Positions 9,847-56,272 of a stretch of DNA of 64,000 nt are shown piece after piece. Source of the DNA: Cantharellus purpuraceus. Lineage: Eukaryota > Basidiomycota > Agaricomycetes > Cantharellales > Hydnaceae. The stretch's first letter is position 1; every line of letters starts with the position of its first letter. The DNA lies in NCBI GenBank assembly GCA_025174535.1, contig JALBUN010000047.1, positions 186,001-250,000 of the forward strand, given 5' to 3'. A program made the translations under genes and the position numbers. Under the pieces are notes generated by a model, which saw only the letters and a list, made by a program, of their open reading frames with translations, was not told the origin of the DNA and searched no databases.

Positions 9847-10154
9847 TGTTAAGGGCTGATACTAGAGGTTCAATGGAGTAACCAGAGTTCAGATGCTAGT
9901 GATGAAGGGGAGGGGACTTTACTGTTCCAGTTCAACTGGAGACAGAATGGGGCAATAACTATTGAGTTGGATTGAGTGGACTTGGCTTCAACTTGTGTGT
10001 TGCGCCCCCTCAGATTGTTGGTCCAATATTTCAGAGTTCAGAGTACAGAGTTGGATCAAGGATCTGGAGTTTGACTTGTCAAGAAAGTACTTGTCAAGAA
10101 GCTAGCAACCAAGAAGTTGATGGGGCAAATCTTAGTTGATATATGAACTACTGT
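9847..10154 (+). repeat. Repeat E, about 305 bp (LTR-like)
   Basis: Starts TGTTAAGGGCTG and ends near GAACTACTGT. An inverted copy lies at 49417-49718. The size and 5' TG suggest a short LTR, but no internal region or target duplication was found. It directly abuts the Ty3 LTR at 10155. Confidence 0.5.
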
Positions 10155-10763
10155 TGTTACACACTAGGTCCAATTGGAGGTTGGAGATTGGGTTGGAGAT
10201 TGGGTTGGAGGTTGGGTTGGAGATTGGGTTGGAGGTTGGGTTGGAGATTGGGTTGGAGGTTGGGTTGGAGATTGGGTTAGAGGTTGGGTTGGAGTTGGAG
10301 TGGGAATCAGGGTGCATCATAGGGGTCAGAATGGACTTGGCTTCAGCTTATGTGCTGTGCCCTCACTAATACTGGTGTCTGAGATTTTGGAGACAGAGTA
10401 TGACTTAGATAGTTAGGATCAGATTTAGGAACTAGGTGTGATTCAATATTTGAACTGGGGAATGAAGTCCCCAGTTGGGCAACTTAAATATTTGAAATCT
10501 AATAATAATTACTCCAGTGATGGGTCTCCAAGGCCAACAGCCTTACATGAGTATGTCTGAGTCTGATGGGGACAGATGTCTGGGTTCCTATGGTGATGCT
10601 GATGCATCAATCAGAACTGGAGATGGATGGGTGAGATTTGGTGGTGACAATCGGACAGATAAATGGAGACGTGATGGTTTCCAAATGGAGTATAGATTTC
10701 ATGTGCATGGGGATCTGAGTGGATTGGATGGGGATCTGGGCGTTAATGAATATAGTCATAACA
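10155..10763 (-). mobile_element. Ty3/gypsy family A LTR (gypsy-1 3' end)
   Basis: On the minus strand it begins TGTTATGACTATATTC and ends GTGTAACA, matching the LTRs at 12736, 18767, 36823, 48595, 50496 and 58348. It contains a 12-bp minisatellite near its U5 side (10172-10296). The 33 bp that follow (10764-10796) match the 3' internal end of the family, so this is a 3' LTR with attached internal sequence, cut off by the B repeat at 10797. Confidence 0.8.
10172..10296. repeat. 12-bp minisatellite in gypsy LTR
   Basis: About ten units of GGTTGGAGATTG alternating with GGTTGGAGGTTG. The same array has about 13 units at 12757-12916, 9-10 at 19215-19330 (opposite strand) and three to five in other LTRs, so copy number differs between LTRs. 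Confidence 0.9.
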
Positions 10764-12088: not shown

Positions 12089-12653
12089 GACGCTTGTTCG
12101 GAATCATGTCAGTATACAATATTCTGATGTATATGAGATATACATCAGAATTTCAATGATACATAAAGCCAGGGAGTTACAATTTGGATATTTTAAAAGA
12201 TTTCGGATGTGTGAAATTTTCATAAATATAAACATATATTCTATATTTTAATAAACTTTAAAAGATGAGATATTTGGTTGAGATGAACATAATCATTTAC
12301 ATGGATATAATAGGAATGTATGTATTAATATAATTGGTATTATATAGGGTATTTAGATATACAAATACCAGGTGGGGATTAAAGATAGTTCAAATTATGT
12401 TACAAGTATTGTATAAGAAAGAATCAATGATATTTGGATGTTCCCTCAAGAGAGTTGCCACCACTAAATGGGGAAAAAAGAATTATTTTTGAGAATTATG
12501 CCAAAATATCACAATATGTTTTAATCTAGTATATTGTGTAAAATTTGAGAATCATGTTGAAATATGAAAATAAGTTTTAATCTAAGAGTGTTGTGTAAAA
12601 TTTGAGGAAAATAGGTTGTATATACGTATTTGTTGTATTTCTGAACAAGCATC
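12089..12653 (+). mobile_element. 565-bp inverted-repeat element (solo copy, Harbinger-like MITE)
   Basis: Ends GACGCTTGTTCGGAAT and CTGAACAAGCATC are imperfect inverted repeats. The empty site is seen in the D copy at 14171-14200 (CTCTCTTATGCC), proving a 3-bp target duplication TTA (12086-12088, 12654-12656). A 14-bp-arm palindrome (ATTCTGATGTATAT) sits about 30 bp from the left end. It has no coding capacity. It matches the 566-bp repeats flanking the unit at 27206-34974. Confidence 0.85.
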
Positions 12654-12735
12654 TTATGCCATTGGCGATGCTATATTCTTTCACGATTCCATTGAACCAT
12701 ATACATTCCTTGGCATTTTGCCTCTATATTGTAAC

Positions 12736-13392
12736 TGTTACGCACTAGGTCCGATTGGCGGTTGGAGATTGGGTTGGAGATTGGGTTGGAGATTGGGTTG
12801 GAGATTGGGTTGGAGATTGGGTTGGAGATTGGGTTGGAGATTGGGTTGGAGATTGGGTTGGAGATTGGGTTGGAGATTGGGTTGGAGATTGGGTTGGAGA
12901 TTGGGTTGGAGATTGAGGTTAAAGGTCGGGTCGGAGTCGGAGTACGTCGCAGGGGTCGGAACGGACTTGGTCAGCTTATGTGCTGCGCCCTCACTGATAC
13001 CAGTGTCTGAGATTTCAGAGACGGAGTACGACTTAGAGAGTTAGGATCGGACTTAGGAACTAGGTGTGATTCAATATTCGAACTGGGGAATGAAGTCCCC
13101 AGTCAGGCAACTTAAATACATATTTGAAATCTAATAATAATTACTCCGGTGATGGGTCTCCAAGGCCGATGGCCTTACATGAGCATGTCTGAGTCCGATG
13201 GGGATGGATGTCTGGGTTCCTATGGTGATGCTGATGCATCAATCGGAACTGGAGATGGATGGGTGGAATCAGCGGTGACAATCGGACAGGTAGATGGAGA
13301 CAGCGGTTTCCAAATGGAGTATAGATTTCATACGCGCGGGGATCTGAGTGGATCGGACGGGGATCTGGACGTTAATGAATATAGTCATAACA
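12736..13392 (-). mobile_element. Ty3/gypsy family A LTR (gypsy-2 3' LTR) with 13-unit minisatellite
   Basis: 657 bp, minus orientation, ends TGTTACGCAC (plus strand) and GTCATAACA. It is preceded by GTAAC (12731-12735), while GTTAC (its reverse complement) flanks the opposite-oriented gypsy LTR at 36818-36822. The 12-bp array occupies 12757-12916. Confidence 0.8.
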
Positions 13393-13533
13393 GTATCTCT
13401 CCATTTAAGGCTGAGCCCCTGAGGCCTCATGTCTGTGGATTGAATAGGTGAGACGATTGGGCATGGTCGGAGTTATGCTGGGGGTCTGGAGATGTATAAA
13501 AGGAGGGGCATGATTGAGGTCTTATCCTCAACG

Positions 13534-13803
13534 ATGTCAAACCCTTTGGCAAGCATGAGTGTGGCCGAGCTGGAGCAGTTGCTCTTGGCCTGACAGAAGG
13601 AGGAGGAGGAGGAGCGGAAACGGAAGGAGGAGGAGGAAGCAGAACGTAAACGGAAAGAGGAGGAGGAAGCGGAACGGAGATGGAAGGAGGAGGAGGAGGC
13701 GGAGTGGAGACGGAAGGAGGAGGAGGAGGCGGAACAGAGACGGAAGGAGGAGGAGGAGGTGGAACAGAGACAGAAGGAGGAGGAGGAGGCAGAATGGAGA
13801 CGG
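13534..13803 (+). pseudogene. Antisense gene of gypsy family A, N-terminal fragment
   Basis: ATG 13534 (MSNPLASMSVAELEQLLL) lies about 40 bp after a TATA box (TATAAAAGG at 13495). A TGA follows LLLA, then the E/K/R coiled-coil repeat continues in the GAGGAGGAGG-rich DNA. It is interrupted at 13804 by repeat D (target duplication ACGG) and resumes at 15220. It runs opposite to the retroelement's own genes. See the copy at 52627 for a longer reading. Confidence 0.6.
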
Positions 13804-15219
13804 TGACGAGCCAGGACGCATCGAGGATGCATATCGAACCACTCTGACAGTCCAACTCCGCCAGCGTCTTTTCGTATCAACTTTTAAATAGCGCCGCAAC
13901 TCCCTATCCACCTCAGTCTCTAATTCGAGCCATCGATCGTCACTCGTGTTTCATCGCCATCGATCATTATCAGCCTTCTATTCACACCCGTCCTTTCATC
14001 ATCATTCACATGGCTTCCCATTCTATTCCCCTCTCCAACATCACTTCTAATAATACGTCACACTGGTCTCTGGACACAGAGGACTATCAAAAATACGCCG
14101 AGCTCCACGGGCATGTTAAGCCACCTCCACGTGTCAAAATACTTCCAAAACTCTTTCAACGTCCAAGATCCCCACCATGTCTCTCTTATGCCATTGGCGA
14201 TCCCATATTCTTTCACAATTCCATTGAACCATATACATTCCTTGACATTTCACCTCTATATCGTAACACGGATAGAAGAGTCGAACATGAGGTAGAATTT
14301 CAGTCACCATCGCTGACCTATCCTCCCACTTCAATCCGACTCAGGTTACATCGTGTCAGGCAAAGGGACCAAATACTCTTGGAGCGGGATACCATATGGA
14401 GACGGATCACTAAGACAATAAGGAGTATTTGTTGTGGATGCTGACGGAAGTCCTCATGTGACTCAGGGTCAATTAACCTTCGGAGCCGTAGGGAAGATGG
14501 TATTGGTGGATGTTTCTATTGTTCTTTTATATGACTCACCCCTGTTTCATCTTTTAATTCATTCATACACGACTTATTCATCCTTGTTCTATTTTTGGTT
14601 CTTTTATTACTCATCACCCCCTATTCTTACAAAGATTACCCCTATCTGTCATTTCATTTCTCCATGATTTCCCCCTTTAGTAGTTCAACTTCACATGCTT
14701 CGTCAGCTGGCTTGATCAGCATTTCTTGCATCATATCGCATCATTTGCTCCTCATATTGTGTTGTTGTGCCCTGGGGATTTGTATATAAAAGGGCGCTAG
14801 TTTTCGCCTTTGGAATCAATCAACAAGTTTTCAGCCCACACTCTAAAGTCAAAGTCCACGCTCTAAGTCTACGCTCTACGCTCTACATCACAATCCATCA
14901 TCTCTACACTGAGGTAAAGCACCTTGGTTCAACGATCAGATTTCCCTCCGCCACCGAGAGGTTGCTTCTCCTGAAACCAGCTTTCGCGTACCTCCCAACC
15001 GGGCTCTGCATTGTCATCCAGTCACAGAGCACGATCAGCCATTGGGACCGACCTTTTGCTCCCATCCTCATCCAACCACAGAGCACTATCCCACTTCCCT
15101 GTTACGTACCCCTCGCCCTGATTGATCTTTGGAGTGCTGAACAACTGCGTTACACACCGTCTGTTTGCTAGGACCGTTGCGCGCAGGCTTATAGGATCTA
15201 TTCCTTAAGCGAACCAACA
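13804..15219 (+). mobile_element. Repeat D, complete copy (1,416 bp)
   Basis: TGACGAGCCAGG to GAACCAACA, flanked by the 4-bp target duplication ACGG (13800-13803, 15220-15223) within the antisense gene. It contains a TTTAAATA box, a 144-codon ORF (14010-14444) and a strong TATA box (TATATAAA at 14783) with about 430 bp after it, the layout of an LTR with U3, R and U5. No matching internal retroelement is present in the window. Confidence 0.8.
14010..14444 (+). CDS. Unidentified 144-aa ORF within repeat D
   Basis: The ATG lies about 125 bp after TTTAAATA. The product starts MASHSIPLSNI and contains WSLDTEDYQKYAELHG, then a Pro/Arg/Lys-rich stretch, then FQSPSLTYPP and a basic end RLRLHRVRQRDQ, closing ICCGC. 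The same frame is preserved in the D copies at 47954-48388 (minus) and, with an altered start, 16592-17128 (minus); it is frameshifted at 54778-55047. I do not recognise a family; no membrane segment is evident. Preservation across dispersed copies favours recent coding, but copies this young would keep a frame by chance. Confidence 0.4.
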   Translation: MASHSIPLSNITSNNTSHWSLDTEDYQKYAELHGHVKPPPRVKILPKLFQRPRSPPCLSYAIGDPIFFHNSIEPYTFLDISPLYRNTDRRVEHEVEFQSPSLTYPPTSIRLRLHRVRQRDQILLERDTIWRRITKTIRSICCGC

Positions 15220-26707: not shown

Positions 26708-27205
26708 CAGAGTGGACAGCTCTGGTATGAAAAGCTAGGAGGATGCCTCGAAAGCATGGGATACACGCGACTCCAATCCGACTCCAGCATATACATTTGG
26801 GAGAACAAATCTGCAAGGATCGTGATACCAGTATTTGTTGATGATCTAATGATTGTGTCGGATTCAAAGGAGGAACTAGACTGTGCAAAAAAGGAGTTAG
26901 CCAAGTCGTTCAAACTCAGGGATCTAGGTCACACCACCAGTCTCCTCAGCGTCAAAATCCAATATGATCAGGAGAAACGCACTCTCAAGCTTTCTCAGAG
27001 ACAATATATTGAGGACATACTGGCCTGCTATGGAATGTTGGACTGCAAACCTGTCTTCACTCCAATGGTCACCAGGACACAACTTAGTTCAAAAATGAGT
27101 CCTTCATCACCAGAGGAGGTGGAATCGATGAAAAATGTTCCATATATGAATGTTGTTGGAGCCCTAAACTACCTAGCAGTGGCAACACGCCCCAATATTG
27201 CTTAT
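26708..27205 (+). pseudogene. Copia reverse transcriptase C-terminal half
   Basis: QSGQLWYEKL, then FVDDLMIVSDS (the YVDD box, with both Asp kept), KELAKSFKLRDLG, then YMNVVGALNYLAVATRPNIAY. The frame is cut at 27205 by the 7.77-kb unit, with target TAT at 27203-27205 and 34975-34977, and continues on the other side as AVGCLARFNS. Confidence 0.85.
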
Positions 27206-27771
27206 GACGCTTGTTCGGAATCATGTCAGTATACAATATTCTGATGTATAGGAGATATACATCAGAATTTCAATGATACATAAAGCCAGGGAGTTACAAT
27301 TTGGATATCTTAAAAGATTTCGGATGTGTGAAATTTTCATAAATATAAACATATATTCTATATTTTAATAAACTTTTAAAGATAAGACATTTGGTTGAGA
27401 TGAACATAATCATTTACATGTACATAATAGGAATGTATATATGAATATAATTGGTATTATATAGGGTATTTAGATATACAAATACCAGGTGGGGATTAAA
27501 GATAGTTCAAATTATGTTACAAGTATTGTATAAGAAAGAATCAATGATATTTGGATGTTCTCTCAAGAGAGTTGCCACCACTAAATCAGGAAAAAAAGAA
27601 TTATTTTTGAGAATTATGCCAAAATATCAAAATATGTTTTAATCTAGTATATTGTGTAAAATTTGAGAATCATGTTGAAATATGAAAATAAGTTTGAATT
27701 GAAGTGTATTGTATAAAATTTGAGGAAAATAGGTTGTACATACGTATTTGTTGTATTTCTGAATAAGCGTC
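27206..27771 (+). repeat. Left 566-bp terminal direct repeat
   Basis: Carries the palindrome ATTCTGATGTATA, GGAGA, TATACATCAGAAT about 28 bp from its outer end, a plausible transposase binding site, and a CTCTCAAGAGAG palindrome near 27560. Homologous to the solo elements at 12089, 55708 and others. Confidence 0.85.
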
Positions 27772-28305
27772 TTAGGAAAGTCTTGGAAACAAACACCTTT
27801 AATGCAGTGAAGCTATTTTTAAAACAAAGTAACTTAGTTAGGGCATAGTGGTAGATAATCTTGTTCTAACATAAGACTGTATGACTATCCCTCGTACTTT
27901 AGGGTGCAATACCATCAGATTTTCCATCCAAAGTGGTGGAAAATAATGATCCTGCTCCATACTAGTATATAACTCTGTTAATTTCTGTTCCAGAAGTGTG
28001 CCATCAGTACATCTGTATAAAGTCAGTGATTGGAACCTTGATATTTATAAAGGAACTTACATCAGAAACAAATCATGGAGGGATCCTATCCGAGATATAT
28101 ACCAATCATTAACTCTTCTATCAAACTCTATCTTGCATTGAAGCATAAAAGAGAGCATCTTCATAATGCTTATAACATAAAAACATAATAATCATTTTAT
28201 TAAGAAAGCAAGATGTATATATCTACTGCCTATACAAAATATCAAATGTTCAGAAAAAAATGATTTTTATATTTTTTCATTTCTGTTTTATAAGCAGAGA
28301 GGGAT
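27772..28305. other. AT-rich leader inside the composite unit
   Basis: No coding frame of note; AT-rich with several short A and T runs. Probably the promoter region of the coiled-coil gene that starts at 28306 or 28312. Confidence 0.35.
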
Positions 28306-28311
28306 TTGAAA

Positions 28312-29442
28312 ATGCCACAAATCTTTGAAGATATAAAAGCAATCAAAGGCTGGATAAGTGACAATGATGCACTGATAAAAGCTATGGCAAGTCAAATGGA
28401 AGTAAAAGATGAATTAATATCTGATCTTATAAATGTCAAGTCTTGGATGAGTGAAAAGGATAGGCAGATCACTATGCTTGAACAACAGGTTAATTCCCAG
28501 AGTCAGGAAATTCAGGTGCTTAAGAAACAGGTTGAGGAAAAAAATACAATTATAACTACTTTGACAGACAGGAAAGAGAATTTAGATGAATGGATGAGTG
28601 AAATGAATGATATTGTATCAGGATTTGGAACAGATATTCATAAACTTCAGAGACAGGTTAATAGGTGTGTTGCCACAATATCAGACCATGGAACAGATAT
28701 TCATCAACAGGTCAATACACATAATGCAGAGAATCTTATATTGGACTATAGAACAGATATTCATAAACTTCAGAAACAGGTTAATAGATGTATTGCAACA
28801 ATATCAGACATTGTGGAATGGAAATCTGAAGTGCATGAGTGGATTGTAGAAACAGATGATACTGTAGTGGAACTTGGAACAGACATTAATAAACTTCAGA
28901 AACAGGGTGATAAATATAAAGCAATAATATCTGAGATTGTTGACTGGAAATTTGATATGAATCACTGGGCTGGAAAACAAGAACAGGAGGTAACAAGGTT
29001 ACAGGAAAATGGTACCAGAAAGGTGACATTTAAGATAGTGAAAAGAGGTGTAGACTATATACTTATAGACTCAGATCAGTCTTGTAGACTAAATAGAATG
29101 GAATTATTCATAAATGGTGAGCCTAGAAAACTATCTACAATATATACTAGAAAGAATGAAATGTCATCATATGACGTAGATGGTAATAGGATTAATTTTC
29201 AAACATGGAAGCAAGGAATGACTCAAGGTTTAAGGCATCAAGAAAAAAGGTCTAATGAACGATCTCAAACTCCTAGTTCAAGGCATCAAGAAAAAAGGTC
29301 TAAGGAACGATCTGATTCAGACTCTGATCAATCTGATTCAGACTCTGATCAATCTGATTCAGACTCTGATCAATCTGATTCAGACTCTGATCAATCTCAA
29401 ATTCCTAGTTCAAGAAAAAGATGTAGAGGGAGAACCCAGTAA
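28312..29442 (+). CDS. Unidentified coiled-coil protein with SD-rich tail
   Basis: One uninterrupted frame of about 376 codons. ATG at 28312 (MPQIFEDIKAIKGW) is the probable start, with an alternative start just upstream at 28306. Heptad-rich helices dominate, with repeated blocks W(I/M)S(D/E)xD and three copies of TDIHKLQ(R/K)QVNRC(V/I)ATISD at about 28630-28930. A probable globular stretch (TRKVTFKIVKRGVDYILID) follows. The C-terminal tail is basic (RHQEKRSNERSQ twice) then four 21-bp repeats encoding SDSDQSD (29311-29395). Likely a self-associating, possibly nuclear DNA-binding or scaffold protein; the function is not known. It is the first gene of the composite unit and, unlike neighbouring retroelement genes, has no stop codons. 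Confidence 0.65.
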   Translation: MPQIFEDIKAIKGWISDNDALIKAMASQMEVKDELISDLINVKSWMSEKDRQITMLEQQVNSQSQEIQVLKKQVEEKNTIITTLTDRKENLDEWMSEMNDIVSGFGTDIHKLQRQVNRCVATISDHGTDIHQQVNTHNAENLILDYRTDIHKLQKQVNRCIATISDIVEWKSEVHEWIVETDDTVVELGTDINKLQKQGDKYKAIISEIVDWKFDMNHWAGKQEQEVTRLQENGTRKVTFKIVKRGVDYILIDSDQSCRLNRMELFINGEPRKLSTIYTRKNEMSSYDVDGNRINFQTWKQGMTQGLRHQEKRSNERSQTPSSRHQEKRSKERSDSDSDQSDSDSDQSDSDSDQSDSDSDQSQIPSSRKRCRGRTQ

Positions 29443-29513
29443 TGTAAGCCTCCGAAGACGTAGGATACAAGGTCACCTTGGAGTGAATGGCTGTCCATGA
29501 GCAGTCTAATGAT

Positions 29514-30058
29514 GTCCCTATCTGTCGTTTCATTTCTCCATGATTTCCCCTTTAGTAGCTCAACTTCACACGCTTTGTCAGCTGGCTTGATCAGCATTTC
29601 TTGCATCATTTGCTCCTCATATTGTGTCGTTGTGCCCTGGAAATTTGTATATAAAAGGGCGCTAGTTTTCGCCTTTGGAATCAATCAACAAGTTTTCAGC
29701 CAACGCTCTAAAGTCAAAGTCCAAGCTCTAAGTCTACACTCTACATCACAATCCATCATCTCTACACTGAGGTAAAACACCTTGGTTCAACGATCAGATT
29801 TCCCTCCGCCACCGAGAGGTTGCTTCTCCTGAAACCAGCTTTCGTGTACCTCCCAACCGGGCTCCGCATTGTCATCCAGTCACAGAGCACGATCAGCCAT
29901 CGGGACCGACCTTTTGCTCCCATCCTCATCCAACCACAGAGCACTATCCCACTTCCCTGATTGATCTTTGGAGTGCTGAACAACTGCGTTACACACCGTC
30001 TGCTTGCTAGGACCATTGCGCGCAGGCTTATAGGATCTATTCCATAAGCGAACCGACA
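29514..30058 (+). mobile_element. Repeat D, 5'-truncated copy inside the composite unit
   Basis: Matches the last 545 bp of repeat D (from CCCTATCTGTC to ATAAGCGAACCGACA), including the TATATAAAAGGGCGC box at about 29649. It has lost its U3 ORF. It splits the composite unit between the coiled-coil gene and the gene at 30551. Confidence 0.75.
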
Positions 30059-30062
30059 CCGA

Positions 30063-30191
30063 GTGACATCATCGGGCTGCTCAAGGACAACGATTCAATT
30101 ATCTGGTACACCATGCCGCTGCAAAGTCTCACCTACTGTCTGCTCAGTAAGTGCATCATTATCAACCCTCACAGCCAAAAGGCTGTCCTTT
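30063..30191 (+). other. GC-richer open stretch of unknown origin
   Basis: Forty-two open codons (SDIIGLLKDNDSIIWYTMPL, then QSLTYCLLSKCIIINP) directly after the D fragment and before AT-rich DNA. Composition differs from the rest of the unit. It may be a captured exon fragment or chance. The following 30192-30550 shows nothing recognisable. Confidence 0.2.
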
Positions 30192-30550
30192 GATAATGTG
30201 ATCAAACTGCTCCTGACAAGGTGACCTTCCATCCGACGTCATTACCATGATATGATAATATCCAATCGGCTGGTACACCTATTTAGCTATGCAGCAAAGA
30301 ATTTGGAATGAAAGACTGGCAAGATAGGAAACAAGGAACTGGTAGAAGAATGATAGATGAAAGGACAGGGAATTCTGTATGGGACTTTGTTGTAGTATTC
30401 AGAACGAGTGCATGCATCTGGCTATTGACAACTTTAGAAAATATATATAATTCAATTTATAAATATTAGATAAAAATATGGACATTCTGCTCTTCAGAAC
30501 TATGCACATATCTAGTAAATAAATTTTATATATCCTTCTTTATTGACATC

Positions 30551-31042
30551 ATGGGTAAATATAAGAAGTGCAATGATTGGAGTTCTCATGATCTTTGGGA
30601 TTATGGTATAATGGTTGACACACAATGGACTAAACAGTTTTTTGAGACAGATTTTAGAGATATTACTTTAGATACTGATGATGAGATCCTCAGTTTTGAT
30701 TACAAAAAAGATGATGTGAAATGTTTAAAGGAGTCTTCAAGAAAATTTTTACATACTTAGATAAGGAAGAATAAGGGAAAAAGTGCTTTAGAGGAAATGA
30801 CAATACCTTGCATTCAAACATCGAGAAAAGTCCCCCAGTTTTACCTAGTAACTGTTACAAGAGAGCTTGATCATGCTATCACAGAAGGGTTGTTTTCAGA
30901 AGTGATAACAAATGTAAGGTGTTGTTTTCCTGTAACAGTAACAGGTATGAAACATATTAATAGTAGAAAGAATGTTCTACAGTGTTTTGAAGCATTTAAG
31001 AAGTTTGTAGATATACTTGATAGGAAATTAGATGAGAAATAA
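30551..31042 (+). CDS. Unidentified protein with one in-frame TAG
   Basis: ATG 30551 opens 69 codons (MGKYKKCNDWSSHDLWDYG, ending SSRKFLHT) to TAG at 30758. The same frame continues open for 94 codons (IRKNKGKSALEEMTIPCI, VPQFYLVTVTRELDHAI, to DRKLDEK). If read through, or if a short intron removes the stop, it is about 163 aa; otherwise two small ORFs (second start 30797). No family recognised. AT-rich codon use like its neighbours. Confidence 0.45.
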
Positions 31043-31080
31043 TGAGTTTTGAAAATTAATATATAATAACCAGAGACACC

Positions 31081-31260
31081 ATGTTGAATATACCCGAGAT
31101 TGGTGATAAGGTATCATTTATCAATGCAAGAACACAAATGACAGTGACAGGTATTGTTACATTAGTAACTGGCACTTTGTCAGATGACACTTTGCTAATA
31201 ACTGTTACTTATGATGACAATGAGATTCAGCTACCACTACGTGCACTACAACAAGTATAA
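31081..31260 (+). CDS. Small unidentified protein, 59 aa
   Basis: ATG 31081 to TAA 31260: MLNIPEIGDKVSFINA, then TVTGIVTLVTGTLSDDTLL and YDDNEIQLPLRALQQV. The pattern of alternating hydrophobic residues and a GDKV start suggests a small beta-barrel (SH3/KOW-like fold), which is inference only. It lies 38 bp after the preceding gene and 51 bp before the next, consistent with a compact gene cluster. Confidence 0.4.
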   Translation: MLNIPEIGDKVSFINARTQMTVTGIVTLVTGTLSDDTLLITVTYDDNEIQLPLRALQQV

Positions 31261-31311
31261 GATAAATCAGATAAGTGAATATGCAATATTTTTATTCACT
31301 CAAATGAAGGC

Positions 31312-31536
31312 ATGTGTGGTGATAGTGAAAAAATTCAAATTACTTGGAAGTGCAATCATATAACTACTATATCTGTAGTTACAGATTGTAAGGATATTAA
31401 ATGTCCTAAGAGCTCTGAACATTCAAAAAATACTCATCATGATACTAATGGTACTTATTGTTGTGTGAACAAAAGTTCAAATCTTGAAATTATCCAAGTG
31501 AAAATAGATGAAAAATGTTGTGAGTGTAGAAACTAG
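31312..31536 (+). CDS. Small Cys-rich protein, 74 aa
   Basis: Starts with ATG 31309 or 31312 (MCGDSEKIQITWKCNHI) and ends KCCECRN. Nine Cys and several His occur, in the order WKCNH, TDCKDIKCPKS, HHDTNGTYCCVN, EKCCECRN, which suits metal binding or disulfides. No N-terminal signal peptide is evident, so an intracellular zinc-binding role is more likely than a secreted effector. Unidentified. Confidence 0.45.
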   Translation: MCGDSEKIQITWKCNHITTISVVTDCKDIKCPKSSEHSKNTHHDTNGTYCCVNKSSNLEIIQVKIDEKCCECRN

Positions 31537-31554
31537 GACTTTTAAATCAACTCC

Positions 31555-32205
31555 TTATGAGGATTCTTTGAACATCTGATTTCTTATACTTTGGAATATA
31601 ATGTCAATAGCATTAGAACACTCTTCAAACTGAGCTTCTATGCTGTATCCAGAGGAAGGATATACAACAATTGAAACACCCTGATTGTTATTGGTGGTTT
31701 CATATAATTTTAACCTACCATCCTTAGTTATGATCATACCATAGATTGTGATTTTACTTTTCTTGAAAACTCTCTGCTGTTGTTTCAATGCAACAACCAT
31801 TGATGTAACCAAATTGTTATACACATCACAGTTCTTACAAGTTTCCCCAGCAATAGAAATATCACACTTCTTGCCAGTTTCTCTAGCAATAGAAATATTA
31901 CAACTAGGCAGATTATCCTGTTGCATGGTTTGCAGACTTGACATACAATGATTTTGTTGAATCCAGGTTGAATTACTTATTTCATTGCCCTTTTCAATCA
32001 TCTTATTGTACAGTGCTTCTGGTGTTTTATCTCTTTCCTGAGAAACCGATCCAGCTGGAAAGAAGTCCTTTGGGGGATTTCTTAATCTGAATTTTATGTA
32101 GATGGTGTCAGAGTCTATATACAAAGGATTTTCATCATCCTCTGGTTCTTTTTTAACAAAGACAGTAGATATTTTACTAACAACTTGCTTAGAGACAGAC
32201 AACAT
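31555..32205 (-). CDS. Unidentified protein, 216 aa, divergent in the cluster
   Basis: The only long minus-strand gene in the composite unit. It starts MLSVSKQVVSKISTVF at 32205 and ends NQMFKESS. VKKEPEDDE near residue 18 fits a SUMO-attachment consensus (hydrophobic-K-x-E) and its acidic extension. The middle has a repeated CDISIAGETCKNCD-like segment (ISIARETGKKCD, ISIAGETCKNCD). The C-terminal third alternates strands (KITIYGMIITKDGRLKLYE). Its start is about 95 bp from the transposase start, so the two share a divergent promoter. Function unknown; a nuclear partner of the transposase is a guess. Confidence 0.5.
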   Translation of the reverse strand: MLSVSKQVVSKISTVFVKKEPEDDENPLYIDSDTIYIKFRLRNPPKDFFPAGSVSQERDKTPEALYNKMIEKGNEISNSTWIQQNHCMSSLQTMQQDNLPSCNISIARETGKKCDISIAGETCKNCDVYNNLVTSMVVALKQQQRVFKKSKITIYGMIITKDGRLKLYETTNNNQGVSIVVYPSSGYSIEAQFEECSNAIDIIFQSIRNQMFKESS

Positions 32206-32300
32206 AGCTTCATAGAATAAATATTATTTAATTTAAAATTCAATTATCAAAAAATGAACATATTTTTGTTTTACTGTAATATAAGAGTATCTTAGTCAAA

Positions 32301-33774
32301 ATGCCCTCAGACCAGCAAAAACGCACAAAGGAGCAAAAAGAGAAAGAGCAAAAAGAGAAAGAAGAAAAAGAGCTTCAGCAACTTAAAATGTGGAATGATC
32401 AAAGGGACAGAGCATATAATAAGTTGATGGACAATCATTGGAATTTTCTATACACAAAGTGGCCTGTCTTAGAACACAAAAATATCATAGAACAAAACTA
32501 AAAGATATGAATGACATGGATGATGTAAAAAAAGTAGTATATAACAAGCTTGGACCAATACCAGTATTTTTCTTTCTTGTGGTATTGTTTTCAGTTGAAG
32601 AACATTCTACACCTTATAGAGAGATAGAAAAAGGCTTGTTAGTACTATATCATCTACTCAAAGGTCCTACTTATGAAGAAATAGGAAATTTCATGCCATC
32701 AAGTAGCTTTTATGATGTTCATAAGGAATTTTATGGTCGTCTGCATCATCTTAACTTTGATCTAGATAAACAAGTTACTGATTCACTGCGTACAATGTTC
32801 TCAAATATAATAATAAGGATATTATCAGCTCTTATAAAGAATCCTCCAAAAATGGAATCAGTGACATTACTTCTTGATGGTCATGATACAAGAGGAATTT
32901 TGATTGGATCGACATCTGAAGAGGGGTACTCACATAAATTTAAAAAGGCAGGATTTCGTACTCAAGTATGCATTGACATTAATCAAATGGTTCTATTCAC
33001 CTCACCTTCATTGGCATGTAAACTAAATCCTGATGCAAAAATGTTTGTAGAGATGGCTGTATGGAATAAAATAGATAAGAATGATCAGATAGGCTTTGAT
33101 GGAGCTTATCCATCTGCTATTCCAGAAGTAGTAAAGGCAAGTATATTAAAGCCTAAGAACTTCTTTTATCCTTTTCGGAAGCCAAAAATGTTGAACTTAA
33201 ACCTGAAGAAAAGATTTTTAATAAGAAGTTTGGTGCCTTTCGTTCAACAGTAGAAGCATTCTTTGGAGGGTTTGCAATATTGTTTGAAAAATTTGATAAT
33301 AAGAGATCTATTAGAACTACAAATCCTGCTGTCTTTAATCTGGAATTAAAGGTAGCATGTCTATTATGGAATATTAAGAAATTTGTAGAACTACGTAAGA
33401 TCAAACCATCCCCTTATCATGAAAAATGGTGTGAACAATATTTTGATTACCCTGAGGAAGAGGACCCAGATATTGAGCCACCCAGATCATTACTGGAAAG
33501 AGCAGAAGATGTTGACAAGATGACTCTATCTCAACAACGACTATTAGAAAGATGTGAGTATGATGTGGAGATGCATTATGAGACTGAAAATGAAGTAGAA
33601 CAAATAATAAGGCAAAGAAAAAGGAAAGTACGTAGAATATTTAGTTAAATGGAAATGTTATGCAGAGAAAACTTGGGAAGCAACATCAAGCTTTAAATCT
33701 ACAGAATGTATTAAAGAGTATTGGAAAGACAATAGTAATAATATTATTGTATACCTATGCTACATTCAACTGTA
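32301..33774 (+). pseudogene. PIF/Harbinger-like DDE transposase with C-terminal chromodomain
   Basis: ATG 32301 opens an E/K-rich coil (66 codons). The main frame (from about 32440) has an HTH-like region (REIEKGLLVLYHLLKGPTYE), D1 in LLLDGHDTRG (32876), D2 in GFDGAYPSAIPEVV (33098) and, after a one-base frame change near 33174, E in FRSTVEAFFGGF (33252). The R-x-x-VE-x-x-FG phrase is typical of DDE_Tnp_4/Harbinger. Frame changes occur at about 32440-32500, 33174 (TTTT run) and 33623 (AAAAA run). After the last comes a chromodomain (EVEQII; KYVEYLVKWKCYAEKTWE), ending at TAA 33774. D1-D2 is about 74 residues and D2-E about 51. Assuming the frame changes are real, it is inactive. It is the best candidate mobiliser of the unit. 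Confidence 0.75.
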
Positions 33775-33831
33775 AATTTTTTTTCCCAGAATAAAATTGA
33801 ATATTTGTATGTTTTATACTTATAGGTATCT

Positions 33832-34329
33832 ATGGAGACTGATCCATTACTGAAACAGCGTCTCAATCAACAGTTTTACCAAAAGCCTTTTCACAGCAAT
33901 CCACACCAGCTAGCTAATTGTACAACATGTGACTGGTACCCCTTTGGGCAGTATCTGGACCGTTCATATGCTGAAGGTGAAGTGTTCCAGCTTTCAAAGT
34001 ATCCTCATATCAAATATGTATTTCTTGGTCTACAACCTGATAAAATAGGCTATAATGAAAGTGATCCTATTTTTGTAGCAGAATTTGCAGGTTTTCTGAA
34101 TAAAACCAACAGATTTGTAAGTGGTTCTGATCCAACCTCTGGATATGCACACATTATAACCACACATGTGAATCAGGCGTTTGTTAGACAGCCAGGCCCA
34201 GATATAAATAGGCAGAAACTATATCTTGGCCGTACAGTGCACATGATCTACATAACTAGTATTGGTATACTATTGGCTTTGCTGTGTTGGACAGTGTCCA
34301 GACATACCAATGAAGATAAGAATTCATAA
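33832..34329 (+). CDS. Unidentified protein with C-terminal membrane segment, 165 aa
   Basis: ATG 33832 (METDPLLKQRLNQQFYQKPF) to TAA 34329. A CTTCDWYPFGQYLDRSYAEG segment lies near residue 30. An apparent transmembrane helix (MIYITSIGILLALLCWTV) lies near residues 138-156, followed by a short polar tail, the topology of a tail-anchored protein. An ATAG just before the start could be a splice acceptor, so an upstream exon is possible. No family recognised. Last gene before the right terminal repeat. Confidence 0.5.
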   Translation: METDPLLKQRLNQQFYQKPFHSNPHQLANCTTCDWYPFGQYLDRSYAEGEVFQLSKYPHIKYVFLGLQPDKIGYNESDPIFVAEFAGFLNKTNRFVSGSDPTSGYAHIITTHVNQAFVRQPGPDINRQKLYLGRTVHMIYITSIGILLALLCWTVSRHTNEDKNS

Positions 34330-34408
34330 TGGCATGTCTAAATCTATGGAGAAAGAAGCTTGTTGATGATATAAGGTGATGATTTTTGTTTTTAAAATGA
34401 CCTCCCTA

Positions 34409-34974
34409 GACGCTTGTTCGGAATCATGTCAGTATACAATATTCTGATGTATAGGAGATATACATCAGAATTTCAATGATACATAAAGCCAGGGAGTTAC
34501 AATTTGGATATCTTAAAAGATTTCGGATGTGTGAAATTTTCATAAATATAAACATATATTCTATATTTTAATAAACTTTTAAAGATAAGACATTTGGTTG
34601 AGATGAACATAATCATTTACATGTACATAATAGGAATGTATATATGAATATAATTGGTATTATATAGGGTATTTAGATATACAAATACCAGGTGGGGATT
34701 AAAGATAGTTCAAATTATGTTACAAGTATTGTATAAGAAAGAATCAATGATATTTGGATGTTCTCTCAAGAGAGTTGCCACCACTAAATCAGGAAAAAAA
34801 GAATTATTTTTGAGAATTATGCCAAAATATCAAAATATGTTTTAATCTAGTATATTGTGTAAAATTTGAGAATCATGTTGAAATATGAAAATAAGTTTGA
34901 ATTGAAGTGTATTGTATAAAATTTGAGGAAAATAGGTTGTACATACGTATTTGTTGTATTTCTGAATAAGCGTC
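34409..34974 (+). repeat. Right 566-bp terminal direct repeat
   Basis: Appears identical to 27206-27771 when read line by line, so the two ends have had almost no time to diverge (or are homogenised). Followed by the target duplication TAT (34975-34977). Confidence 0.85.
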
Positions 34975-35577
34975 TATGCAGTTGGGTGCCTGGCAAGGTT
35001 CAACTCAAATCCTGGTCCCAAGCACTGGACAGCAGTGAAACATCTACTTCATTACCTGAAAGGGACTAAAGAACTGAAACTCACCTACACCCAAACCACA
35101 CAACAAGATCCATTCGAGATGTGGGCAGATGCTGACCATGGAGGAAACCCAGATAATGGGCAATCAACTACTGGCTATGTAGCAAGAATGGGGGGAGGAG
35201 CAGTTTGCTGGTCAAGCAAATTACAATCCATCATGACATTGTCAACTACCGAAGCTGAGTACATCATCACAGCAGCAACAGTGGGAACGGAGGTGGCTTG
35301 GCTGAGAAGTCTTCTAAAAGAAGCAGGAATACCAGTCCCAGAACCATCGTGCATTTTCATGGACAATCAGTCGGCAATGTCAGTAGCAAAGAACCTGGAG
35401 CACCACAGATGCATGAAGCACCTTGACCTTTGCTACTTTTGGCTTCACAACAAGGTCACGGGAAAGGAAATGGAAGTGGAATACGTGCCCACTGGCGAAA
35501 TGATCGTGGATCTTCTAACAAAAGCACTCCCACAGGAAACCATGGAGCGCCACAGAAATTCGATGGGATTATTGTAA
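34975..35577 (+). pseudogene. Copia RNase H, C-terminal end of Pol
   Basis: Resumes copia Pol after the composite unit: ATG-less frame AVGCLARFNSNPGPKHW, then AVKHLLHYLKGT, MWADADHGGNPDNGQST (first catalytic Asp), LSTTEAEYI (Glu), IFMDNQSAM (Asp), KALPQETMERHRNSMGLL and TAA at 35577. All expected RNase H motifs are present. PPT-like CCTCAAGGGGGTG follows at 35595-35607. Confidence 0.85.
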
Positions 35578-39491: not shown

Positions 39492-39733
39492 TATATTCAC
39501 ATAAATAATTATGTTCATCCATAACAAACATCTAATCTTTTAAAGTTTATTAAAATATGAAATATATATTTATATTTATAAAAATTTAAGATATCCAAAA
39601 AAAATTTGGATATCTGAAATCTTTAAAGATATCCAGATTGTAACTCCCTATTTTTATGATCATTATTAAAATTCTGATGTATATCTCATATACATGAGAA
39701 TATTGTATAACAGCATAATTCCAAACAAGTGTC
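39492..39733 (-). mobile_element. 565-bp element, truncated reverse copy
   Basis: Contains the CTGATGTATATCTCATATACAT palindrome region and ends AAACAAGTGTC (the TIR). Diverged, with small insertions. Truncated by the gypsy LTR end at its left. Confidence 0.65.
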
Positions 39734-39882
39734 ATACAGAGAGTAGCCTGTATAAGTATATGAAGAATTGAATGATAAACTAAAAGCAATAGGACAATAA
39801 GATGGATGTGGAATACAACATGGAAAGGAGTTTGGAGTTTGGACTCAAGTCTGAACTAATACTAAGCAATATAAAAGATAAA

Positions 39883-40566
39883 GACACTTGTTCAGAAATA
39901 CAACAAATATGTATATACAACCTATTTCCTCAAATTTTACACAACACACTTAGATTAAAACTTATTTTCATATTTCAACATGATTCTCAAATTTTACACA
40001 ATATACTAGATTAAAACATATTTTGATATTTTGGCATAATTCTCAAAAATAATTCTTTTTTCCCCATTTAGTGGTGGCAACTCTCTTGAGGGAACATCCA
40101 AATATCATTGATTCTTTCTTATACAATACTTGTAACATAATTTGAACTATCTTTAATCCCCACCTGGTATTTGTATATCTAAATACCCTATATAATACCA
40201 ATTATATTAATACATACATTCCTATTATATCCATGTAAATGATTATGTTCATCTCAACCAAATATAGGTTATTTAGATATACAATACCAGGTGGGGATTA
40301 AAGATAGTTGAAACAAGTATTGTATAAGAAAGAATCAATGATATTTGGATGTTCCCTCAAGAGAGTTGCCACCACTAAATGGGGAAAAAAAGAATTATTT
40401 TTGAGAATTATGCCAAAATATCAAAATATATTTTAATCTAAGTGTATTGTGTAAAATTTGAGAGTCATGTTGAAATATGAAAATAAGTTTTAATCTAAGT
40501 GTGTTGTGTAAAATTTGAGGAAAACAGGTGGTATATACATATTTGTTGTATTTCTGAACAAGCATC
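39883..40566. mobile_element. Fold-back derivative of the 565-bp element
   Basis: 39883-40263 is a reverse half and 40264-40566 a forward half of the same 3' portion, head to head, giving inverted arms of about 300 bp with outer ends GACACTTGTTCAG and CTGAACAAGCATC. The three bases outside do not form an obvious duplication. Confidence 0.7.
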
Positions 40567-48594: not shown

Positions 48595-49043
48595 ACGTCG
48601 TAGGGGTTGGAACGGACTTGGCTTCAGCTTATGTGCTGCGCCCTCACTAATACCGGTGTCCGAGATTTCAGAGACGGAGTACAACTTAGAGAGTTAGGAT
48701 CGGACTTAGGAACTAGGCATGATTCAATATTTGAACTGGGGAATGAAGTCCCCAGTCGGGCAACTTAAATACATATTTGAAATCTAATAATAATTACTCC
48801 GGTGATGGGTCTCCAAGGCCAACAGCCTTACATGAATATGTCTGAGTCCGATGGGGATGGATGTCTGGGTTCCTATGGTGATGCTGATGCATCAATCGGA
48901 ACCGGAGATGGATGGGCAGAATTGGCAGTGACAATCGGACAGGTAGATGGAGACGTGGTGGTTTCCAAATGGAGTATAGATTTCATACGCATGGGGATCT
49001 GAGTGGATCGGACGGGGATCTGTTAATGAATATAGTCATAACA

Positions 49044-49410
49044 ATATAACAGTAATGTATATATTAATATTATTGGTATAATATAGAATATTTAGATATA
49101 CAAATACCAGCTGAGGATTCAAGGTACATTAGATTATTTGACCAGTATAGTACAAGAAAGAATGAGTGAAAGAAATTAAGTGTAGTGGGAGTAGAATATT
49201 CCCTTGAAGCAGTTGCCACTGGTAAATGAAAAAAAAGAATTATTTTTGAGAATCATGTCAAAATATCAAAATATGTTTTCAATCTAAGTAAATCATATAA
49301 AATTTGAGAATCATGTATGAAATATCAAAATATGTTTTAATATAAGTATATTATGTAAAACTTGAGGAAATGGGTTGTATACATATTTGATGTATTTCTG
49401 AACAAGTGTC
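49044..49410 (+). mobile_element. 565-bp element, old truncated copy
   Basis: Similar to the right two-thirds of the 565-bp element (TTTAGATATACAAATACCAG, then GAATTATTTTTGAGAATCATG) and ends CTGAACAAGTGTC. Diverged, with a partial internal duplication near 49300. Confidence 0.6.
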
Positions 49411-52046: not shown

Positions 52047-52626
52047 GGAACGGACTTGGCTTCAGCTTATGTGCTGCGCCCTCACTAATACCAGTGTCCG
52101 AGATTTCGGAGATGGAGTATGACTTAGAGAGTTAGGATCGGACTTAGGAACTAGGTGTGATTCAATATTCAAACTGGGGAATGAAGTCCCCAGTCAGGCA
52201 ACTTAAATACATATTTGAAATCTAATAATAATTACTCCGGTGATGGGTCTCCAAGGCCAACGGCCTTATGTGAGTATGTCCGAGTCTGATGGGGACAGAT
52301 GTCCGGGTTCCTATGGTGATGCTGATGCATCAATTCGGAACCGGAGATGGGTGGGTGGAATCAGCGGTGACAATCGGACAGGTAAATGGAGACGTAGCGG
52401 TTTCCAAATGGAGTATAGATTTCATATGCACGGGGATCTGAGTGGATCAGACGGGGATCTGGACGTTAATGAATATAGTCATAACAGTATCTCTCCATTT
52501 AAGGCCAAGCCCCTGAGGCCTCATGTCCGTGGATTGAATAGGTGAGACGATTGGGCGCGGTCGGAGTTATGCTGGGGGTCTGGAGATGTATAAAAGGAGG
52601 GGCATGATTGAGGTCTTATCCTCAAC

Positions 52627-53370
52627 AATGTCAAACCCTTTGGCAAGCATGAGCGTGGCCAAGCTGGAGCAGTTGCTCTTGGCCCGACAGAAGGAGGAGG
52701 AGGAGGAGCGGAAATGGAAGGAGGAGGAGGAAGCAGAACATAAACGGAAAGAGGAGGAGGAAGTGGAACGGAGATGGAAGGAGGAGGAGGAGGCGGAGCG
52801 GAGACGGAAGGAGGAGGAGGAGGTGGAACGGAGACGGAAGGAGGAGGAGGAGGCAGAATGGAGACAGAAGGAGGAGGAGGAGGCAGAACGGAGACAGAAG
52901 GAGGAGGAGGAGGTGGAATGGAGACGGAAGGAGGAGGAAGAGCAGAGGTGGAAAGAGGCGGCGAAGACAGAACGGAGAAGGAAAGAGGAGGAAGCGAAGG
53001 CTGAGAGGGCCTGCATGGTAAAGGAACTTGTGGCAGCAATGGAGGCCATGAGACTGAAGGAAGTGGAGGAGCAGGTGCATGAGCTAGAGGCTGCCATGGA
53101 GGTAGAGGAGGAGGTGACCGGGGCAGGGGGAACCAGCCACCCAGGGAGTCCGAGTGTGCCAATACGGCCAAGGACCTGAAGTCACCATCATCTCCGTTTC
53201 ACGGACGGTGACGACTCGTTCGAAGGCTGTCACTGTGGAGGACTCGCCGTTACGTCTGCAGGCACAGCCCTTATTTGAGTTGGGGGCAGCTGAGGAAGAT
53301 GATGCGGCAGAGACAGAGAGGGCGGAGGTGGAGGTGGATCCTGATGCCAATATGGAGCTTGATGCAACCG
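52627..53370 (+). pseudogene. Antisense gene of gypsy-3, N-terminal and central part
   Basis: TATA box at 52589, ATG 52627 (MSNPLASMSVAKLEQLLLAR), about 120 residues of E/K/R coiled coil in 15-residue repeats (KEEEEAERRR types, from a 45-bp DNA repeat), then AKAERACMVKELVAAMEAM, EVEEEVTGAG and VPIRPR. A small deletion at about 53172 shifts the frame; the next frame continues with TRSKAVTVEDSPLRLQAQ, ELGAAEEDDAAETE and NMELDA. It is then cut and joined to integrase sequence at 53371. The coil repeats vary in number between copies. Confidence 0.6.
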
Positions 53371-55707: not shown

Positions 55708-56272
55708 GACGCTTGTTCAGAAATACAACAAATACGTATGTACAACCTATTTTCCTCAAATTTTATACAATACACTTCAATTCAAACTTATTTTCATATT
55801 TCAACATGATTCTCAAATTTTACACAATATACTAGATTAAAACATATTTTGATATTTTGGCATAATTCTCAAAAATAATTGTTTTTTCCCCATTTAGTGG
55901 TGGCAACTCCCTTGAGGGAACATCCAAATATCATTGATTCTTTCTTATACAATACTTGTAACATAATTTGAACTATCTTTAATCCCCACCTGGTATTTGT
56001 ATATCTAAATACCCTATATAATACCAATTATATTCATATATACATTCCTATTATATCCATGTAAATAATTATGTTCATCTCAACCAAATATCTTATCTTT
56101 TAAAGTTTATTAAAATATAGAATATATGTTTATATTTATGAAAATTTCACACATCCGAAATCTTTTAAGATATCCAAATTGTAACTCCCTGGCTTTATGT
56201 ATCATTGAAATCCTGATGTATATCTCCTATACATCAGAATATTGTATACTGACATGATTCCGAACAAGCGTC
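55708..56272 (-). mobile_element. 565-bp element, solo copy in gypsy RT
   Basis: GACGCTTGTTCAG to CGAACAAGCGTC with ATA at 55705-55707 and 56273-56275. The empty site is preserved in gypsy-2 at 39415-39430 (CCCTATCTCCTC), which confirms the 3-bp duplication (TAT on the element's strand). Confidence 0.9.

Follow-up and report, generated by a model that had tools for sequence, protein, structure and literature searches.

Matched long terminal direct repeats on a multicopy DNA transposon of the fungus Cantharellus purpuraceus

In the window, by which we mean the whole 64,000-nucleotide stretch of Cantharellus purpuraceus DNA analysed here (C47:186001-250000), a DNA transposon carries its genes between two long direct repeats, and we found that repeats are far more alike within an insertion than between different insertions. 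From this likeness and from the separate variation of repeats and interiors, we consider it slightly better than an even chance (about 0.55) that the element propagates via a form that has a single repeat joined to one interior and becomes repeat-interior-repeat on arrival in a manner like that of IS26 units.

Architecture and insertion of the window copy

The whole composite is 7,769 bp long. Its left and right repeats, 566 bp each, show zero differences and enclose 6,637 bp, confirming letter for letter the arrangement that the original prediction had read in the window. Each repeat starts with GACGCTTGTTCGGAA and finishes in an imperfect inverted partner, TTCTGAATAAGCGTC, so that the termini are short imperfect inverted repeats (GACGCTTGTTCGGAA versus GACGCTTATTCAGAA) of the form GACG...CGTC, with no TG...CA. 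As had also been noted, the target-site duplication TAT is found at the outer edges only, the inner borders of the repeats being unlike each other (TTA and CTA), and the inverted-ended repeat occurs alone as well, at two places in the window. Each of these solo copies proved to have a 3-bp duplication of its own. The main features are as follows.

27203..27205, no strand: left target-site duplication TAT, from reading the sequence
27206..27771, plus strand: left long terminal direct repeat, 566 bp, with short imperfect inverted ends, the same as the right repeat
27772..34408, plus strand: interior, 6,637 bp, multicopy and with fixed repeat junctions, from the genome search
34409..34974, plus strand: right long terminal direct repeat, 566 bp, the same as the left repeat
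34975..34977, no strand: right target-site duplication TAT, from reading the sequence
12089..12653, plus strand: solo repeat, 96%, with its own TTA duplication, from a repeat search of the window
55708..56272, minus strand: solo repeat, 98%, with its own TAT duplication, from the same search

When the flanks are fused with a single TAT, they give an open frame of 200 codons. The left half of this frame resembles the Copia-type reverse transcriptase RVT_2 (Pfam expectation value (E) 2.2e-5, below the curated cut-off), and the right half gave no Pfam match at E 0.01. The 194-base join of the flanks has four paralogous uninterrupted sites in the same genome (on contigs C18, C21, C11 and C34, 72-79%), each aligning across the junction as one alignment. 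Because the frame is open across the joined flanks and the four paralogs are uninterrupted, the full 7,769 bp was inserted into a Copia-type element as a single unit. Together with the outer duplications, this upholds the proposal that the pair and its cargo had entered as one.

Copies in the genome and the likeness of paired repeats

The genome searched comprises 40.15 Mb in 50 contigs. A search with the interior scored 23 places, namely the window and 22 others, 11 of the latter being full-length at 98-99%. We also counted interior ends by end patterns, allowing up to two mismatches. The repeat was attached at all 59 left ends, to which two found via the junction pattern alone were added to make 61 in total, and at 57 of the 58 right ends. 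One of the 57 (C24:166158) and the 58th (C23:1092915) are related elements, the one on C23 having its own repeat type nearby. A match to the left-junction pattern at C1:1095689 was discarded as spurious, and elements E21 and E31 are missing from the right-end count, the right interior end having been lost along with part of the repeat. Left and right ends could be paired in 54 of 61 cases, 53 of them spaced 5,981-7,267 bp and one 12,446 bp; five of the seven unpaired left ends reach contig ends and the other two are E21 and E31. Genome-wide, a search with the first 26 bases of the repeat, allowing up to three mismatches, gave 496 occurrences, and subtracting those at composites gives an estimate of about 380 solo repeats, damaged ones included. 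The element is multicopy, and the pair is not a chance arrangement.

Tandem arrays in which neighbouring units have a repeat in common were found on C38, C44 and C45, the one on C44 having at least three units, with the contig stopping within the third. The 19-kb contig C44 (L013, L014, L062) is mostly tandem array, which could mean that the assembly truncated a long array or that the multimer is extrachromosomal. At C37:28297 and C1:3855641 (L005, L007) the same 12 bases stand right after the repeat, perhaps reflecting a duplicated segment or two haplotypes.

Of 20 composites, 17 have matching 3-bp duplications, or 18 when a shifted left end is assumed for E17; so have 22 of the 24 solo repeats examined, against a rate of 12.7% for flanks paired at random. 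The target is C-TWA-G, C preceding at 29 of 39 sites and G following at 28 of 39. The duplicated triplets are mostly AT-rich, chiefly TTA, TAA, TAT and ATA, and the commonest two, TTA and TAA, make up 17 of 39. E10 and E26, whose duplications mismatch and whose repeats are unlike within each element, are probably products of recombination between elements. Solos and composites were picked as best matches to the window copy. E05, E13, E29 and E31, which are arrays or truncated, are within the 24 repeat pairs compared below and outside the 20 composites; L049, L051 and L054 were excluded from the solos in this count as left repeats of composites, L054 being kept as a solo in alignments.

Between the left and right repeats of the same element the mean difference is 0.54% (24 pairs, with arrays and truncated repeats included). 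Random left-right pairing gave a mean of 2.07% and a minimum of 1.42%, and 0 of 20,000 trials was as low as 0.54%. For 17 of the 24, a repeat's own partner was its nearest or jointly nearest repeat. An earlier set of 19 elements had a median of 0.18% within elements versus 2.1% between them, and restricting the comparison to the 18 elements whose duplication matches (counting E17) gave a mean of 0.40% and a median of 0.18%, 11 of them having at most one difference. Private variants found on one side only number 11 in 12 elements (E09-E13 and E15-E21), or about 0.9 each versus about 1.2 expected from interior singletons, an expectation that is somewhat high since fewer interiors than repeats were compared.

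The repeats and the interiors differ in their variation. In full-length copies the repeats differ by 2.3% between elements and the interiors by 0.55%, about a fourfold difference, interior divergence between elements being just 0.4-0.55%. Repeat and interior distances gave r = -0.21 among 11 elements and r = 0.15 among 21, where 745 of 5,000 permutations were as high, indicating a weak link at most. The shift in diversity is sharp at the junction, the outermost comparison windows of the interior showing 0.5% at the left end and 0.2-0.6% at the right. Since the repeats vary about four times more than the interiors and the distances are unlinked, both repeats seem to change together, separately from the interior. 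Diversity is also up, at 1.2-1.4%, in two comparison windows of the interior near 29516-30068, one of which also holds a variable SD-rich repeat. Both this rise and the diversity of the repeats are most simply explained by ectopic exchange with other copies. The region itself, of about 550 bp, resembles a captured piece of another repeat and includes a TATA-like stretch.

29516..30068, no strand: piece of another repeat inside the interior, with six more copies in the window at 84-91%

How the element propagates

We favour propagation via the one-repeat form because the repeats are alike within an element and unlinked to the interior, one-sided variants persist, and clean loss of a single repeat was not seen. 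The repeat is a shorter substrate than the composite, yet of the 117 interior ends found by pattern, 116 keep the repeat and none shows a composite from which one repeat was cleanly removed. Private one-sided variants occur near the interior rate; therefore later conversion between the repeats has not erased them. The 566-bp repeat is by itself a complete insertable unit, having inverted ends and a 3-bp duplication at C-TWA-G and being found alone by the hundred. Recombination between the two repeats would probably free a circle with one repeat and the interior, and integration of this circle could give two copies of one repeat. Two routes can be considered. In the first, which IS26 units follow, the repeat of the circle would reach a new site by replicative strand transfer; in the second, break repair would insert the interior at a solo repeat already resident, copying that repeat and keeping its target duplication. 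The second route best accounts for the varied and unlinked repeat types, and the first explains the sibling pairs E12/E26 and E23/E25. As the main route we rejected integration of a circle by a simple single crossover with an unlike solo repeat; it predicts unlike left and right repeats, and most are alike.

A bolder form of the second route, which we put forward tentatively and consider rather unlikely, is that the interior is its own homing unit that spreads chiefly into resident solo repeats as landing pads, duplicating the pad on entry. If so, repeat and interior would be partners, each with a history of its own, and together they would parallel the IS26 translocatable unit in a eukaryote. 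To our knowledge, spread by entry into resident solo repeats is known for no Harbinger-like transposon. In IS26 the transposase is encoded in the repeat itself. Translocatable units of IS26 and the IS6 family resemble the present element in that alike direct repeats of a mobile unit stand around cargo and in that the form proposed to move is the cargo with a single repeat; they differ in that the fungal transposase lies in the interior and the host is eukaryotic, not bacterial.

Several observations weigh against propagation via the one-repeat form. No circle was seen. E12/E26 and E23/E25 share the interior and the right-repeat type, which movement of the unit as a whole would predict. In E21 and E23 the duplications match, yet left and right repeats are unlike at 8 of 431 sites and at 6 of 562, respectively, mostly through variants also present in other copies, and the repeats of E28 differ at seven sites, of which four are private to a single side. 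E17 alone contributes four of the 11 one-sided private variants. Counting the private alleles of all 24 pairs, we found 19 on one repeat only and 11 on both, and conversion could also yield the latter. The alignments cover 72 of about 500 repeats.

The strongest rival, which we regard as a real possibility though not the probable one, is cut-and-paste of the whole composite, with gene conversion within an element keeping its repeats alike and ectopic conversion from solos supplying the repeat types. It draws on the matching duplications at most composites, on the two sibling pairs, on the private alleles carried by both repeats of a pair, and on the repeats of E10, E21, E23, E26 and E31, which differ at shared variants; the diverse region near 29516-30068, which has homologous copies elsewhere, suggests that ectopic conversion may act in this genome. 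However, conversion that evens out repeats 2% different should make one-sided private variants rare, and they occur at about the interior rate. A transposase accepting the 566-bp repeat should also excise single repeats, whereas all the interior ends but one keep theirs, the exception being a related element. Moreover, under cut-and-paste the left and right repeats would travel as two lineages, and repeat diversity should equal interior diversity.

A true composite of the bacterial type, in which two independent repeats flank DNA and move together with it as separate lineages, is very improbable. The repeat can indeed insert by itself, as the duplications around solos indicate, but this arrangement predicts that left repeats resemble left repeats, and instead the left repeat matches the right repeat of the same element; the pairing test (own partner nearest or jointly nearest in 17 of 24) speaks against separate lineages, which we rejected. 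In the composites that we read, each repeat meets the interior at a constant junction and not at a duplication of its own, which answers the doubt, raised with the original prediction, that each repeat might carry a separate duplication.

Long direct repeats generally pass for a hallmark of retroelements, and a disguised derivative of a long terminal repeat (LTR) retrotransposon, supplied with reverse transcriptase in trans, would share alike ends within an insertion (with E21 and E23 as exceptions here), solo ends by the hundred and tandem arrays. We give this equally little credence. No Pfam match to a reverse transcriptase was found in the transposase, the seven other open reading frames (ORFs) or the seven minor ORFs (50-92 amino acids) of the interior, genes lie on both strands, and the ends GACG...CGTC are inverted repeats and not TG...CA. 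With a DDE transposase of DNA-transposon type and 3-bp duplications at C-TWA-G, the element has, as had been suggested, LTR-like ends without being a retroelement. In annotation, such solo repeats could readily be misfiled as LTRs or miniature inverted-repeat transposable elements.

Misassembly, or a pair of unrelated insertions enclosing host DNA, is scarcely credible even though contigs C9, C15, C27, C36 and C44 end inside copies, since the window copy is a unit insertion with one duplication, independent insertions there being ruled out by the open joined frame and the four uninterrupted paralogs, and since the interior has many copies with different flanks and hence is not the trapped unique host DNA that had been raised as a possibility.

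Transposase, other reading frames and known systems

The transposase is of the DDE_Tnp_4 type and, judged by its sequence, PIF/Harbinger-like. In the window copy it is split into ORFs 32301-32501 and 32507-33253; an ORF of 444-454 amino acids is open in 4 of 12 full interiors, and 12 full-length matches elsewhere in the genome are without a stop. Broken copies probably spread with help from intact ones, because many of them have stops equal in number and kind. The element's own protein matched PF13359 (DDE_Tnp_4) at E 0.001, below the curated cut-off, and the broken 248-amino-acid piece of the window gave no PF13359 match in the Pfam scan. Two relatives matched above the cut-off and carry a chromodomain (P0001, E 4.4e-10; P0021, E 1.9e-8). 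D, D and E are invariant in 36 of 36 relatives, and the predicted structure of P0001 (mean predicted local distance difference test score 89.6) resembles piggyBac and Tn5 transposases and chromodomains. The relatives named among 60 matches are Apophysomyces, Rhizomucor, Mortierella, Actinomortierella and Thamnidium, that is, Mucorales and Mortierellales (orders looked up for two). The predicted Harbinger-like transposase with a chromodomain thus stands as to DDE_Tnp_4 and as to the chromodomain in relatives; the window copy is broken, and its chromodomain part lies in another frame. This stretch is out of the transposase frame in all 22 copies aligned, and it may have been lost through an old frameshift or be reached by frameshifting or splicing.

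32301..33648, plus strand: transposase gene (DDE_Tnp_4), frame broken in the window copy, from ORFs and Pfam
33629..33772, plus strand: chromodomain-like stretch in a frame different from that of the transposase, read by eye; in frame in relatives such as P0001
28312..29442, plus strand: 376-amino-acid ORF, coiled-coil-like, with a variable SD-rich repeat and weak Pfam matches to coiled-coil families
30797..31042, plus strand: 81-amino-acid ORF, open in 12 of 12 full interiors, from ORF comparison
31081..31260, plus strand: 59-amino-acid ORF, open in 12 of 12 full interiors, from ORF comparison
31312..31536, plus strand: 74-amino-acid Cys-rich ORF, from ORF comparison
31555..32205, minus strand: 216-amino-acid ORF, open in 12 of 12 full interiors and kept in related elements, from ORF and genome comparison
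33832..34329, plus strand: 165-amino-acid ORF with a hydrophobic C-terminal stretch, from ORF and genome comparison

The interior had been credited with at least six unknown genes, and conservation in related elements was shown for two ORFs alone, those of 165 and 216 amino acids. Stops were found in 0 of 63 match rows of the former and 5 of 66 of the latter. Related transposases on C23, C24 and C35 (62-66%) each adjoin the 165-amino-acid ORF at 89-93%, and those on C23 and C35 also adjoin the 216-amino-acid ORF in pieces, at 81-93%. Comparison of the right ends of these elements showed the same junction with the repeat in two of the three (C24:166158 and C35:13040, at most two mismatches), the third having a copy of a related repeat behind it (C23:1093700-1094071). 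These comparisons suggest that the plan may be older than this one family and that the transposase evolves faster than these two ORFs. Part of the pattern could be explained by recombination between families. The 216-amino-acid ORF lies upstream of the transposase on the opposite strand and had no significant Pfam match by sequence profiles alone. Near the end of the coiled-coil ORF, the SD-rich tandem codon repeat varies in length among copies.

PIF/Harbinger elements have a DDE_Tnp_4 transposase and a 3-bp duplication, with TTA and TAA commonest, and also a second, Myb/SANT-like protein; plant PIF has a palindromic CTWAG-like target. The fungal element shares the transposase type, the 3-bp duplication favouring TTA and TAA, and the CTWAG target. 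No Pfam match to a Myb/SANT-like protein was found among the interior ORFs scanned, by sequence profiles alone.

The supposition that no described eukaryotic family has this plan did not hold. KolobokP, of the Kolobok superfamily in animals, has it according to the main text describing it (PMC9587614): an interior containing the transposase lies between long terminal direct repeats of about 450 or 660 bp that have short inverted ends of their own, and solo repeats and arrays or tandem multimers sharing a repeat occur, all of this in common with the fungal element. In 2022 KolobokP was presented as unlike other DNA transposons in having long direct repeats; its authors discuss circles and an IS26-like unit and call the pathway keeping both ends alike unknown, and a term search of that main text gave no comparison of the two repeats within single insertions (PMC9587614). 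Comparing repeats with interiors, as done here, is a sequence-only test of how such elements keep their ends alike. Beyond KolobokP, a limited search of the literature gave no Harbinger-like precedent for long terminal direct repeats.

The two systems differ in several respects. The fungal element, in a fungal host, has DDE_Tnp_4, 3-bp duplications at C-TWA-G and extra conserved ORFs. Downstream of its transposase, KolobokP encodes a His-Me finger nuclease in the opposite orientation; Pfam recognised none in the fungal element. KolobokP-4N1_CorFlu has 46 one-repeat copies versus 90 monomers (PMC9587614), in contrast to the repeat retained at nearly every fungal interior end. We rejected membership in Kolobok: the C/DxxH between the second D and E is present in 0 of 36 relatives and is absent from the element's own protein too. 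Because this signature is absent, the fungal element is not a KolobokP, though it works like one, and the same plan looks to be of independent origin. A second transposase type with this plan, in a fungus, suggests that the plan arises repeatedly and works.

Elsewhere in the window, three adjacent repeat pieces in opposing orientations lie at 39502-40566, one of them, a related repeat, just 77% like the family, and a further piece of such a repeat is listed below. Minisatellite arrays with 12-bp and 30-bp units were found at 10107-10365, 12688-12970, 13505-13863 and 52599-53047.

49026..49410, plus strand: piece of a related repeat family, 77% to the 566-bp repeat, from the repeat search of the window

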